Source: Desulfarculaceae bacterium
Lineage (GTDB): Bacteria; Desulfobacterota; Desulfarculia; Desulfarculales; Desulfarculaceae
Assembly (NCBI GenBank): GCA_021737145.1
Contig: JAIPEN010000005.1
Span: 62,001 to 126,000 of the forward strand
DNA: 64,000 nucleotides
Direction: 5' to 3'
Notes under the pieces: model-generated
Seen by the model: the letters and a program-made list of their open reading frames with translations, nothing else
What the model was told of the DNA's origin: nothing
Databases searched by the model: none
Shown here: one piece after another, positions 26,779-44,402 of the stretch
Layout of the letters: every line of letters begins with the position of its first letter
How positions within the stretch are numbered: position 1 is the first letter of the stretch
Translations under genes and position numbers: made by a program

Positions 26779-28095
26779 GTGGGCCCAACCTCTAGCCACC
26801 AGGGCAGTGAAATCCATCCCCCCCAGCCGCGAGGCTGGCGAAACCGCCGCGCCGCCAAGGGAAAGGGTCCGATCTACTACGGCTGGTACGTGGTGGTCAT
26901 GGCCTTTGCGGCCAACTTCGCGGCCGCGGCCACCCAGTTCTACGCCTTCAACGCCTTCATGCTGCCCCTGTGCGCCGAGCGGGGCTGGACCCGGGCCGAC
27001 ATAAACCTGGCCCCCATCGTGGGCTACGGCTTCGGCCTGGCCGGGCAATACTTTTACGGCGCCATCATCGGTCGCATCGGGCCGCGCCGCTTCATGACCA
27101 TCGGGGCCCTGGTGTCGGCCACGGCCTTCATCTGTCTGGGCCAGGTGGAAGACCTGCTCCTGTTCTACGTGGCCTACACCATGGTCATCCTGGGCAACGC
27201 GGCCATGGCCTCCCTGGTGGCCAACACCGCGGTATCCAACTGGTTCGTCCAGTACCGGGGCCGGGCCCTGGGCATGGCCACCAGCGGGCTCACCCTGGCC
27301 GGGGTGATCATTCCCTTCGCGGCCCATCACCTGCTGCACGTCATCGGCTTGAACAACGCCTTTTTGACCATCGGCCTGGCCATCGGCTGCCTCTCCCCCC
27401 TGGCCTGGCTGGTGGTGCGCGACTCTCCGGAGTCCAAAGGCCTGCACCCGGACGGCCGCATCCCGGCCACGGCGGACCCGCCCTCCGGGCCCTCGGCCAT
27501 GGAGGTGTGCACCGTGCCCATCAAGGTCCTGGTAAAGACCGGCAGTTTCTGGCGGGTGGGCCTGGCCTATGGATTGGCCAGCGCCGGGGTCTTCGCGGTG
27601 GTGTTCCAGTTGGGCCCGCGCTTCCAGGACCTGGGCTACGACGGCTCCACGGCCATGCTGCTGGTCACCTTCGCCTCCATTGCCGGCACCTGCGGCAAGT
27701 TCACCTGGGGCTTCCTGTGCGACCGTTTCCCGCCCAGCCGCCTGGCGGCGGTGATGTTCTGCCTGGTGGGGGTGGGTCAGATAATGGGCCTGATCGCCAG
27801 CGGACCCGTCACCGTGGGCCTGTTCATCCTCATCTTCGGCTTCGGCATGGGCGGCATCATGTCCACCTTCCCCATAATGACCGCCTGGTGCTTCGGCCGG
27901 CACAGCTTCGCCTCGGTGTTTAGGGTGCTGGCCCTGTTTCTGTCCTTGCAGGCCGTGGGCTACGTGGCCATGGGCCAGACCTTCCGGCTCACCGGATCCT
28001 ATGACGCGGCCTACCTCCTGTTCGTGTTCATCGACCTGGGCGCGGCGGCCATGGTGCTGGGCGTAAAGCCCACCGAGGCCGCGATCATCGCTTGA
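26779..28095 (+). CDS. MFS transporter (oxalate/formate antiporter-like)
   Basis: GTG start preceded by AAGGAG; GPIYYGWYVVVMAFAANFAAAATQFYAFNAFMLPLCAERGWTRADI; about 12 TM segments. Confidence 0.8.
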   Translation: MGPTSSHQGSEIHPPQPRGWRNRRAAKGKGPIYYGWYVVVMAFAANFAAAATQFYAFNAFMLPLCAERGWTRADINLAPIVGYGFGLAGQYFYGAIIGRIGPRRFMTIGALVSATAFICLGQVEDLLLFYVAYTMVILGNAAMASLVANTAVSNWFVQYRGRALGMATSGLTLAGVIIPFAAHHLLHVIGLNNAFLTIGLAIGCLSPLAWLVVRDSPESKGLHPDGRIPATADPPSGPSAMEVCTVPIKVLVKTGSFWRVGLAYGLASAGVFAVVFQLGPRFQDLGYDGSTAMLLVTFASIAGTCGKFTWGFLCDRFPPSRLAAVMFCLVGVGQIMGLIASGPVTVGLFILIFGFGMGGIMSTFPIMTAWCFGRHSFASVFRVLALFLSLQAVGYVAMGQTFRLTGSYDAAYLLFVFIDLGAAAMVLGVKPTEAAIIA

Positions 28096-28885
28096 GCGCC
28101 CCGCGCAGTTGGCCGGCCAGCTCGCTCATCGAGCGCACCGCCTCGGCGGGGCCGTCCGCCTCCTGCACCCGGCGCACCAGGGCGCTGCCCACCACCACGC
28201 CGTCGGCCACCGGGGCCAGGGCCGCGGCCTGGGCCGGGGTGGCCACGCCGAATCCCACCGCCACCGGCAACGACGAAGCGGCCCGCACCTTTTGCATGGC
28301 GGCCAGGCGCTCCCGGCCCAGCTCCAGGTCCGAACCGGTCACCCCGTCCATGGACACGTAATACAAAAAGCCCTTGCCCGCCTGCATGATGCGCTGCAGC
28401 CGCTCCGGCGGAGTGCCCGGCGCGGCCATGAACACCGGAGCCAGGCCGTGTTGGTCGCAGGCGGCCAGCCACTCGCCCGCCTCCTCGGGCGGGATATCCG
28501 GTATGATCACCCCGCTCACCCCAGCATCGGCGGCGCGCCGGGCGAACTCTTGGCAGCCCATGGCCAGCACCGGATTGATGTAGGTCATCACCACCAGGGC
28601 CGCTTGCACCTTGCCGGCAATGGAGGCCACCGAGTCCAGCACGTTGGCCGGAGTGGCCCCGGCCATAAGGGCCTGGTGGCTGGAGGCTTGGATAATGGGG
28701 CCGTCGGCCAGGGGATCGGAAAAGGGGATGCCCACCTCGATCACCTCGGAGCCCAGGCCGTCCAGGGCCAGCACCAGCTCCTGGCAGGTGGCGTGATCCG
28801 GGAAGCCGCCGGTCACGTATGGCACAAAGGCGGCCCGGCCGGCTTCGGCCGCGTTGGCGAACTGTTCGCGCAGGTCCTTGCTCAT
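28085..28885 (-). CDS. trpA: tryptophan synthase alpha subunit
   Basis: [30 protein letters not shown]...[19 protein letters not shown]. Confidence 0.95.
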
Positions 28886-30096
28886 TTCTGCTTCTCCAGA
28901 TAGGCGGTCACCTGGGACACATCCTTGTCGCCCCGGCCGGACAGGCACACCAGAATGATGTCATCCTTGCCGTATTGCGGGGCCAGCTCTTTCAGGTGGG
29001 CCAGGGCATGGGCGCTCTCCAGGGCCGGGATGATGCCCTCCAGCCGGGTCAGGTCCATGAAGGCCCGCACGGCGGCCTTGTCGTCCACCGTGGCGTAGGT
29101 GACCCGCTCGATGTCCTTTAGGTGGCTGTGCTCCGGCCCCACCCCGGGGTAGTCCAGGCCCGCGGCCATGGAGTAGGCCTCGATGATCTGGCCGTGAGGG
29201 TCTTGCAGCAGATACAGGGCCGCTCCGTGCAGCACGCCGGGTTTGCCGGCGGTCAGGCTGGCCGAGTGCTCGCCGCTGTCCAGGCCGTAGCCCGCGGCCT
29301 CCACCCCGATGAGGTCCACCGGGTCGTCCAGCAAGGGATGGAACAGGCCGATGGCGTTGCTGCCCGCGCCCACGCAGGCCACCGCCGCGTTGGGCAGCCT
29401 GCCCTCGCGCTCCAAAAGCTGGGCCCGGGCCTCGCGGCCGATCACCGCCTGGAAGTCGCGCACCAGGCGGGGATAGGGATGGGGGCCCACCACCGAGCCG
29501 ATGATGTAGTGGGTGTCGCGCACGTTGCTCACCCAGTCGCGGATGGCCTGGGTGGTGGCGTCCTTGAGGGAGCAGCTCCCGCTGGTCACCGGCTCCACCT
29601 TGGCCCCCAGCATCTCCATGCGGGTCACGTTGAGCGCCTGACGCTCCATGTCCAGGGTGCCCATGTACACCAGGCACTCCAGGCCCATGAGCGCGGCGGT
29701 GGTGGCCGTGGCCACCCCGTGCTGCCCGGCCCCGGTCTCGGCGATGATGCGCTTTTTGCCCATGCGCCTGGCCAGCAGCACCTGGCCCAGGGCGTTGTTG
29801 ATCTTGTGGGCCCCGGTGTGGGTCAGGTCCTCGCGTTTCAGGAAGATGCGCCCTCCCCCCAAGGCCCGGCTGAGGTTGGCCGCCTCGTAAAGCGGGGTGG
29901 GCCGCCCGGCGTAGTGCTCCAGCAGCCCGGCCAGTTCGGCGCTGAAAGAGGGATCTTCCAGGGCCGTGGCATAGGCCGCGGCCAGCTCTTCCAGGGCGGG
30001 CATGAGGTTTTCGGGCACGAAGCGCCCGCCATAGGGCCCGAAATGGCCCTTGGCGTCAGGCAGCGGCCCGGGCGAGGAAGCTTGCGATGAGCTCAT
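28882..30096 (-). CDS. trpB: tryptophan synthase beta subunit
   Basis: [22 protein letters not shown]...[24 protein letters not shown]. Confidence 0.97.
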
Positions 30097-30658
30097 GATC
30101 CTTCTTGCCTTTCTCTATCTCCACGCCGCTGGACACGTCCACGGCAAAGGGTTGCACCTGGGCGATGGCCGCGCCCACGTTTTTCGGGGTAAGCCCCCCG
30201 GCCAGAATGATGGGCCGCTGGCGGGCGATGTCTTGGGCGATACTCCAGTCAAAGCTTTGCCCCGTGCCGCCGGCCTGGGACGAATCATAAGCGTCCAGCA
30301 GCAGGGCGCAGCCTGGATAGGCCGCTGGGTCCGGCTCGCGGCCCGCCCCCACCCCGAGGGCCTTGATCACCCGTGGGCCGAGGGAGGCCGTCTCGGTCTC
30401 GCTCTCGCTGCCGTGGAGCTGCACCCAGTCCAGGCCGCAATAGGCGCGCAGCTCGGCCACCTCTCGGGGCGGGGCGTCCACAAACACGCCAACCGTGGCC
30501 ACCAAAGGCGGCAGCCCGGTGATGATCTCGCGGGCCTGGTCCGGGCTAACCCGGCGGGAGCTCTCGGCCAACACGAAGCCTAGGGCGTGGGCTCCGGCCT
30601 GGCAGGCGGCCAGGGCGTCCTCGCGGTTGGTGATGCCGCATATCTTCACCCGGGTCAT
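30056..30658 (-). CDS. trpF: phosphoribosylanthranilate isomerase
   Basis: [36 protein letters not shown]. Confidence 0.95.
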
Positions 30659-44206: not shown

Positions 44207-44347
44207 TTAGTCTAGGTCATCCCCGGTGGAGCGCACCGCCAGCGGTGGACGCCACCAATAAAACCAAAAGCCAAACACCGGCAGACCGGGGCCGAACTCC
44301 GCGGGGCGGAGGCCGTTGCTGCTTGGGTTGTGGCTGTGGTCAGTCAT
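44207..44347 (-). CDS. mixed aromatic leader peptide MTDHSHNPSSNGLRPAEFGPGLPVFGFWFYWWRPPLAVRSTGDDLD
   Basis: 46-aa ORF with F-G-F-W-F-Y-W-W; followed by alternative pairing segments (44241-44248, 44232-44240) and a terminator before trpE. Confidence 0.85.
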   Translation of the reverse strand: MTDHSHNPSSNGLRPAEFGPGLPVFGFWFYWWRPPLAVRSTGDDLD

Positions 44348-44359
44348 TTTGTATACAAA
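44348..44359. promoter_or_regulatory. perfect 12-bp palindrome TTTGTATACAAA abutting leader ATG
   Basis: Shared core with 32689-32698 in the trpL promoter. Confidence 0.4.
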
Positions 44360-44372
44360 CTCCAATGATTGC

Positions 44373-44402
44373 TCAGTATGGCCCTGACAGGACTTTTGTC
44401 AA
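44373..44402 (-). promoter_or_regulatory. putative promoter TTGACA-N17/18-ATACTG/TACTGA for trpE-leader operon
   Basis: Perfect -35 hexamer, spaced weak -10. Confidence 0.55.

Follow-up and report, generated by a model that had tools for sequence, protein, structure and literature searches.

Putative leader-peptide attenuators in series along an aromatic amino acid supra-operon of a Desulfarculaceae bacterium

Introduction

How might a single gene cluster that carries the common trunk of aromatic amino acid biosynthesis together with its phenylalanine/tyrosine and tryptophan branches adjust each of these parts to the amino acids that it supplies? The question is raised by a supra-operon of 16 genes on the minus strand of a Desulfarculaceae contig (GenBank assembly GCA_021737145.1, contig JAIPEN010000005.1, positions 62,001 to 126,000; this stretch of 64,000 nucleotides (nt) is referred to as the window, and coordinates are counted from its first letter). 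Sequence reading combined with NCBIfam assignments divides the supra-operon into three units, with a leader of its own ahead of each. Attenuation of the trp and pheA operons is textbook knowledge, and the attenuators described in textbooks respond to a single amino acid or to the products of one operon. The original prediction, made from this sequence, proposed three leader-peptide attenuators forming a three-tier system, in which the trunk would sense phenylalanine, tryptophan and tyrosine (F+W+Y), the second unit F+Y and the third mainly W. The present analysis assigns a probability of about 92% to reading the three elements as classical ribosome-mediated transcription attenuators arranged in series along one aromatic supra-operon. 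Their anatomy and gene content, their conservation and complementary pairing, and some covariation are directly observed.

Anatomy of the three units and their leaders

Unit 1 (35957..44128, minus strand) comprises trpE, trpG, the 3-deoxy-D-arabino-heptulosonate 7-phosphate (DAHP) synthase gene DAHPS1, aroA, aroE, an aroK-aroB fusion (aroKB), aroC and aroQ; unit 2 (32724..35602, minus) holds DAHPS2, pheA (chorismate mutase-prephenate dehydratase) and tyrA; and unit 3 (28085..32509, minus) consists of trpD, trpC, trpF, trpB and trpA. Leaders with a promoter-like site, a short open reading frame (ORF) rich in aromatic codons and a strong terminator lie where the original prediction had placed them, as judged from the sequence, its translation and folds, and each ORF directly precedes its intrinsic terminator ahead of the first gene of the unit.

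All elements of the leaders lie on the minus strand. Leader 1 is preceded by the putative promoter P1 (TTGACA-16-CATACT, 44375..44402), which agrees with the consensus at 10 of 12 bases and whose TTGAC is found ahead of leader 1 in 14/14 genomes. The 46-residue peptide MTDHSHNPSSNGLRPAEFGPGLPVFGFWFYWWRPPLAVRSTGDDLD (44207..44347) carries the control codons FGFWFYWW, the 5' arm of the antiterminator (segment 2, 44229..44240) pairs with the 5' arm of the terminator, and terminator 1 (44156..44184) forms a hairpin followed by a T tract, with 99% of alignment cells paired and three pairs changed on both sides. Leader 2 follows the putative promoter P2 (TTGACA-17-TTTACT, 35896..35924; TTGAC in 16/17 genomes), encodes a peptide of 38 residues with the control codons FYFYFYYF (35737..35853), contains an antiterminator 5' arm within this ORF (35756..35765), and is followed by a terminator with T tract (about 35660..35704) recognised by fold and alignment. 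Leader 3 lies behind the promoter-like P3 (TTGACT-17-TAATTT, 32699..32727; TTGAC in 12/12 genomes); its 23-residue peptide MFATCWRYWWWYEDRSGPPALAR (32593..32664) reads CWRYWWWY, an antiterminator 5' arm is placed at 32609..32617 by its pairing with the terminator 5' arm and by the stall simulation described below, and terminator 3 (32534..32573) is again a hairpin with a T tract. The 3' halves of the leaders fold with z-scores of -3.5, -4.4 and -5.9 for leaders 1, 2 and 3, respectively. A candidate 1:2 (pause or protector) hairpin covering the Trp codons was seen in the folds of leader 1 and leader 3 and was not evident in that of leader 2. A scan of the window with Rfam gave no match, including Trp_leader (RF00513) at its gathering score and T-box.

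The promoter boxes, the NCBIfam gene content and the leader composition in relatives bear out the proposal that each of the three units has a promoter of its own, assigned here from sequence, and a leader with codons for what the unit makes. The -35 box of P2 begins approximately 30 nt past aroQ, and that of P3 shares bases with the stop codon of tyrA. The supra-operon sequence contains no terminator between the units, so that transcripts from P1 would be able to enter attenuators 2 and 3.

A ribosome-position switch in the leader RNA

In the proposed mechanism, RNA polymerase would synthesise segments 2, 3 and 4 while a ribosome translates the leader. Scarcity of charged tRNA for the clustered codons would stall the ribosome on the aromatic run, allowing the 2:3 antiterminator to form and the polymerase to continue; when no stall occurs, the ribosome would cover segment 2 and leave segments 3 and 4 to form the terminator. 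Since the runs differ, the trunk would answer to a shortage of Phe, Trp or Tyr, DAHPS2-pheA-tyrA to one of Phe or Tyr, and trpDCFBA to one of Trp. It is from the leader architecture that we infer the transcription starts, ribosome stalling, termination, the amino acids sensed and any combinatorial logic.

Pairing between segment 2, which lies inside each leader ORF, and the terminator 5' arm, a pairing incompatible with the terminator itself, was compared with dinucleotide shuffles across the leaders of relatives, where U1 and U2 denote the positions of leaders 1 and 2, U3a that of leader 3, and U3b a tandem second Trp leader before trpD. The native pairing exceeded the shuffles (P<=0.05) in 13/14 U1, 15/17 U2, 7/12 U3a and 6/9 U3b leaders, as well as in 7/7 leaders ahead of a third DAHP synthase gene (DAHPS3) and 9/10 ahead of an aminotransferase gene, both described below. 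The leader 2 antiterminator GUCUGCCC:GGGCAGAC, with eight pairs, is fully paired in all 17 sequences, one of these pairs having changed on both sides, from U-A to C-G, in three genomes from separate clades; the alignment of terminator 2 also contains two doubly changed pairs.

Ribosome stalling was simulated by folding, under a ribosome mask, transcripts cut before segment 4; these replaced equilibrium folds of the full-length leaders with a ribosome mask, which gave no discrimination and in which the terminator won. In the three leaders of the window, the simulated pairing of segment 2 reached 0.60-0.89 with the A site on F25-W32 (leader 1), F21-Y27 (leader 2) and W6-Y12 (leader 3), and dropped to <=0.11 within about two codons past the stall window. 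Across units, the median distance between the last aromatic codon and the last simulated stall that frees segment 2 is 0-2 codons, except in U3a, where it is 4.5. Codon placement would thus fit the switch, as the modelled antitermination window ends close to the end of the aromatic run. Attenuation, the mechanism named in the original prediction, is consistent with these antiterminators and simulated stall windows, which resemble the classical type.

Ribosome arrest by the nascent peptide is known for some leaders, in the case of TnaC in response to free Trp, and this precedent is what speaks for reading the leaders as arrest peptides that sense the free amino acid, or as devices of translational coupling or Rho, in place of a ribosome-position switch. 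The peptides are poorly conserved outside the aromatic runs, whereas the codon runs and the RNA pairing are conserved, and strong intrinsic terminators follow immediately after each ORF, which makes such readings very improbable.

Chance expectation for aromatic leaders

A scan for short ORFs with >=5 aromatics in nine codons and a terminator behind them covered 1.66 Mb (41%) of the 4.03 Mb genome and yielded nine matches, the top three being the leaders of the window with 8, 7 and 6 aromatics. Six of the nine precede aromatic-pathway genes or a conserved new target, while dinucleotide shuffles amounting to 284 kb gave no match to the same criterion. With other amino acid triplets, the scan returned 1 to 108 matches, so the raw count of nine is unexceptional, and the argument therefore rests on placement, score and conservation in relatives. 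Three matches (L200:17656, L322:11890 and L326:19523) were discounted as probably due to chance, the sequence being read at L200 only. Runs of five F/Y codons alone were discarded as a signature, with 19 matches in the genome against 30 for the reversed pattern.

Codon composition across relatives

Relatives were collected by a PheA search and 40 fetched regions, and leader composition was taken in the best ten-codon window. Many genomes of the family share the gene order and the leaders of the supra-operon. Leader 1 is present in 14 genomes, of which 13 belong to the family and one, G053, to another, and F, Y and W occur in all 14, the mixed run being kept despite divergence of the flanking leader sequence. 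Leader 2, in 17 genomes, contains 3-7 F and 2-4 Y and never W, and leader 3, in 12 genomes, contains 2-4 W, no more than one F and varying numbers of Y. Aromatic codon conservation in relatives, named beforehand as a test on which the original prediction could fail, is thus observed for each leader. The proposal that leader 3 senses mainly W is supported by its conserved W codons, while its Tyr codons are not conserved. The control codons of leader 2 favour TTT (61 versus 14 TTC) and TAT (50 versus 9 TAC), whereas the aro and trp genes of the window show the opposite preference (TTT 41 versus TTC 94; TAT 21 versus TAC 67).

Sister families provide a natural experiment, since a different operon composition there goes with a different leader composition. 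In the families f3, f4 and f5, trpE heads trpEGDCFBA, and the eight leaders found there are essentially Trp only (NWWWP, NWWWW, WGWWWT, NWWWRSS), while F/Y-rich leaders stand ahead of DAHPS2-pheA in most of the f4 loci read. In the family of the window, trpEG has become attached to genes of the common pathway. A mixed F+Y+W leader occurs in 14/15 trunk-type loci and in 0/8 sister-family trp loci (Fisher P=1.8e-5, phylogeny ignored). Leader codon content would accordingly appear from these sequences to track operon content, with one exception found.

That exception belongs with several points that weigh against the attenuator reading and its graded codon logic. The genome G009, of the same family, carries ahead of a full trunk a leader with W and R codons only (GGWRRWRARGG, translated by eye), so that the proposal of a shared trunk sensing F+W+Y would apply to the 14 genomes with mixed codons and not to this one. 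The antiterminator of leader 3 of the window itself fails to beat shuffles (P=0.20), even though its core pairs exist, and covariation in the leader 1 antiterminator is modest. The model depends on co-transcriptional order, because equilibrium folds of full leaders favour the terminator, and the truncated fold forms 2:3 even without a ribosome, unlike the textbook case of E. coli trp. Finally, aromatic richness was the selection criterion for the leaders, and hence only the split between F, W and Y counts as an independent result.

Could these be ordinary attenuators whose codon content is no graded code, any aromatic run sufficing and the mixture in leader 1 having drifted from an ancestral Trp leader? 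The leader of G009 would then be a retained form ahead of the same trunk; F, Y and W codons all start with T and are a few changes apart; and the relocation of trpE may have been a single event, which would leave the association between leader and operon with few independent points. Against drift stand the joint presence of F, Y and W in leader 1 of 14 genomes despite the divergence of its flanks, the absence of W from leader 2 in 17 genomes, and the essentially W-only trp leaders of the sister families with the contrast given above. Drift is accordingly considered unlikely, and codon content adjusted to operon content is preferred.

A candidate operator on the Trp-containing units

Absent from the original account is a palindrome, TTGTATACAA, an exact match to which lies directly ahead of leader 1 (44349..44358) and another at the expected transcript start of unit 3, ahead of leader 3 (32689..32698). 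The 4.03 Mb genome contains four exact copies, two of them in the supra-operon. Its core GTATAC occurs in the 110 nt that precede leader 1 in 8/14 genomes, leader 3 in 10/12 and the DAHPS3 leader in 4/7, against an expectation of about 0.003 per interval of that size, while none was found at this distance from leader 2 (0/17), the aminotransferase leader (0/11) or the sister-family trp leaders (0/8). Sites of this type also lie ahead of the leader of a metallo-beta-lactamase (MBL)-fold hydrolase gene in two relatives and ahead of trpE in G009. From this distribution, TTGTATACAA is probably the operator of a further regulator on Trp-containing units.

The remaining two copies were set aside. 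One lies within a coding sequence and recurs in relatives together with its gene, and is therefore probably no operator; the other stands at a gene start beside purB. In the genome G002 (L085:1-1500, minus strand), a gene for an AMP-binding enzyme carries TTGTATACAA right after promoter-like boxes, and this gene is a possible further member of the candidate regulon. In one survey, TrpR and TyrR are conserved across gamma-proteobacteria but lacking from the other classes (PMC5343134). Consistent with it, a TrpR-family repressor (PF01371) was found in 0/20 genomes, including the own genome (94.7% complete), and TrpR was rejected as reader of the palindrome on this absence.

It may be argued that control at the DNA level is dominant, a repressor on TTGTATACAA governing the Trp-containing units and attenuation being secondary. 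Two of the four genomic copies at leaders 1 and 3, the enrichment of GTATAC at these leaders and that of DAHPS3 set beside its absence at leader 2, and the shift of the site relative to the promoter between genera, as DNA operators do, all agree with such a repressor. It would, on the other hand, leave the leaders, the codon runs and the paired RNA segments unexplained; the palindrome is missing in several relatives and at unit 2 and the aminotransferase; TrpR is lacking, and no regulator was identified. Dominant repression thus appears rather improbable, though less so than drift of the leader 1 codons, and attenuation by the leaders is retained as the principal device.

Further leaders and the wider regulon

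In other parts of the genome, three or more additional transcription units would be under the same device, bringing the putative leaders to at least six within the 41% scanned. DAHPS3, on another contig (L226:13769-14839, minus), is preceded by the Tyr/Phe-rich leader RFAAYLYSYYYAP (MIHLHGQFESRHALAGVRPRFAAYLYSYYYAPVSRTVSCRGVPKA) with its terminator (L226:14943-15080, minus), kept in seven genomes of the genus as FFYFYYYAP or YLYYYYYAP, with Y (mean 4.9) plus F and without W. A pyridoxal phosphate (PLP)-dependent aminotransferase gene (NF005305; L201:18511-19951, minus) follows the leader FRFIRYYYYP, of which the F and subsequent Tyr run (YYY) are kept in eleven genomes, and the leader predicts this enzyme to be the Phe/Tyr aminotransferase that the supra-operon lacks. 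The MBL-fold hydrolase gene (L326:18051-19188, plus) stands behind the F/Y leader VFTYFVFSGFIGAPMG and a terminator, recurring at the same place in two relatives as RFFYFSG(F/Y)IGA(L/P)MG, which suggests a role for the hydrolase in aromatic metabolism. All three were found by the genome scan; upstream of pheS and trpS, no leader of aromatic type was found.

A second Trp leader with its terminator, for example YCWRWWRFTGRESVLP, sits between terminator 3 and trpD in most relatives, whereas the window and its closest relative have a single Trp attenuator ahead of trpD. Tandem complete Trp attenuators between tyrA and trpD were read at L037, L038, L039, L040, L041, L042, L047 and L048, and a TTGAC promoter precedes just 1/9 of the U3b leaders. 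The split into F+W+Y, F+Y and W is thus conserved as proposed, while the number of three tiers is exceeded by the further leaders of the genome and by the tandem leaders of relatives.

A wider scheme is offered tentatively, at somewhat below even odds. A graded set of leaders (F+W+Y, F+Y, Y+F, W and tandem W) would run the whole pathway, each of the three DAHP synthases being under its own leader and codon content re-evolving as operon content changes, and a regulator reading TTGTATACAA mainly on Trp-containing units would replace TrpR and TyrR. DAHPS2 (34703-35602) showed no match to the ferredoxin-like domain PF18152, which DAHPS1 and DAHPS3 match weakly; DAHPS2 may be free of the feedback control exerted through PF18152 and depend on the F/Y leader instead. 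Downstream of trpA lie two long minus-strand ORFs without a Pfam match (26668-27903 and 25326-26579).

Comparison with known systems

The E. coli trpL attenuator (RF00513) shares with the present leaders the short ORF, tandem Trp codons that in many cases have Arg behind them (WWR), the competing antiterminator and terminator, and a promoter of its own. It differs in that leader 1 has conserved Phe and Tyr codons as well and stands at the head of the common pathway, while leader 3 starts at trpD and relatives possess two tandem Trp attenuators. The E. coli pheA attenuator (pheL) and the pheST leader are Phe-rich; pheL, like leader 2, stands ahead of the prephenate dehydratase gene, whereas leader 2 mixes Phe and Tyr codons and would control DAHPS2-pheA-tyrA, and no leader comparable to that of pheST was found upstream of pheS here. 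Leaders for several amino acids exist at ilvGMEDA (Leu, Val, Ile) and thr (Thr, Ile), where one leader senses several products of its operon. Those are single leaders of single operons, whereas several leaders with nested specificities would here partition one pathway. The ilvGMEDA operon is listed among attenuated operons (PMC1183508).

Attenuators have also been predicted ahead of tyrA supra-operons, including aroA'-aroB'-aroQ.pheA-aroF-tyrA-trp of Desulfovibrio vulgaris (PMC1173090, Table 7), and the same source notes two attenuator units in Streptococcus pneumoniae. The D. vulgaris case, from a former delta-proteobacterium, resembles the present one in its large aromatic/trp supra-operon and predicted attenuator; its tabulated entry gives one attenuator and describes neither leader peptides nor codon content, whereas a graded set is found here. 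The tandem attenuators of Salmonella mgtCBR (PMC3641672) likewise place two short ORFs in series within a single transcript leader, as in U3a-U3b of relatives, although they respond to other signals and serve another operon. The literature searched yielded no biosynthetic tandem-Trp case, nor any account of a leader that mixes F+W+Y or of a graded set, though mixed aromatic leaders may have been mentioned earlier.

According to a survey of 2013, Rfam then covered just the His, Leu, Thr and Trp leaders, and gamma-proteobacteria may be where its amino acid attenuators arose, with few transfers (PMC3766115). The leaders described here would represent pervasive use of attenuators in a phylum other than that of the gamma-proteobacteria in that survey. 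The mechanism is classical, and the pathway-wide graded set with mixed codons looks new. Nested codon mixtures appear to partition a single branched pathway, setting its trunk apart from two branches; the integration of several tRNA signals by one leader becomes directly testable, and leader codons can predict the pathway membership of unassigned genes such as those of the aminotransferase and the MBL-fold hydrolase.

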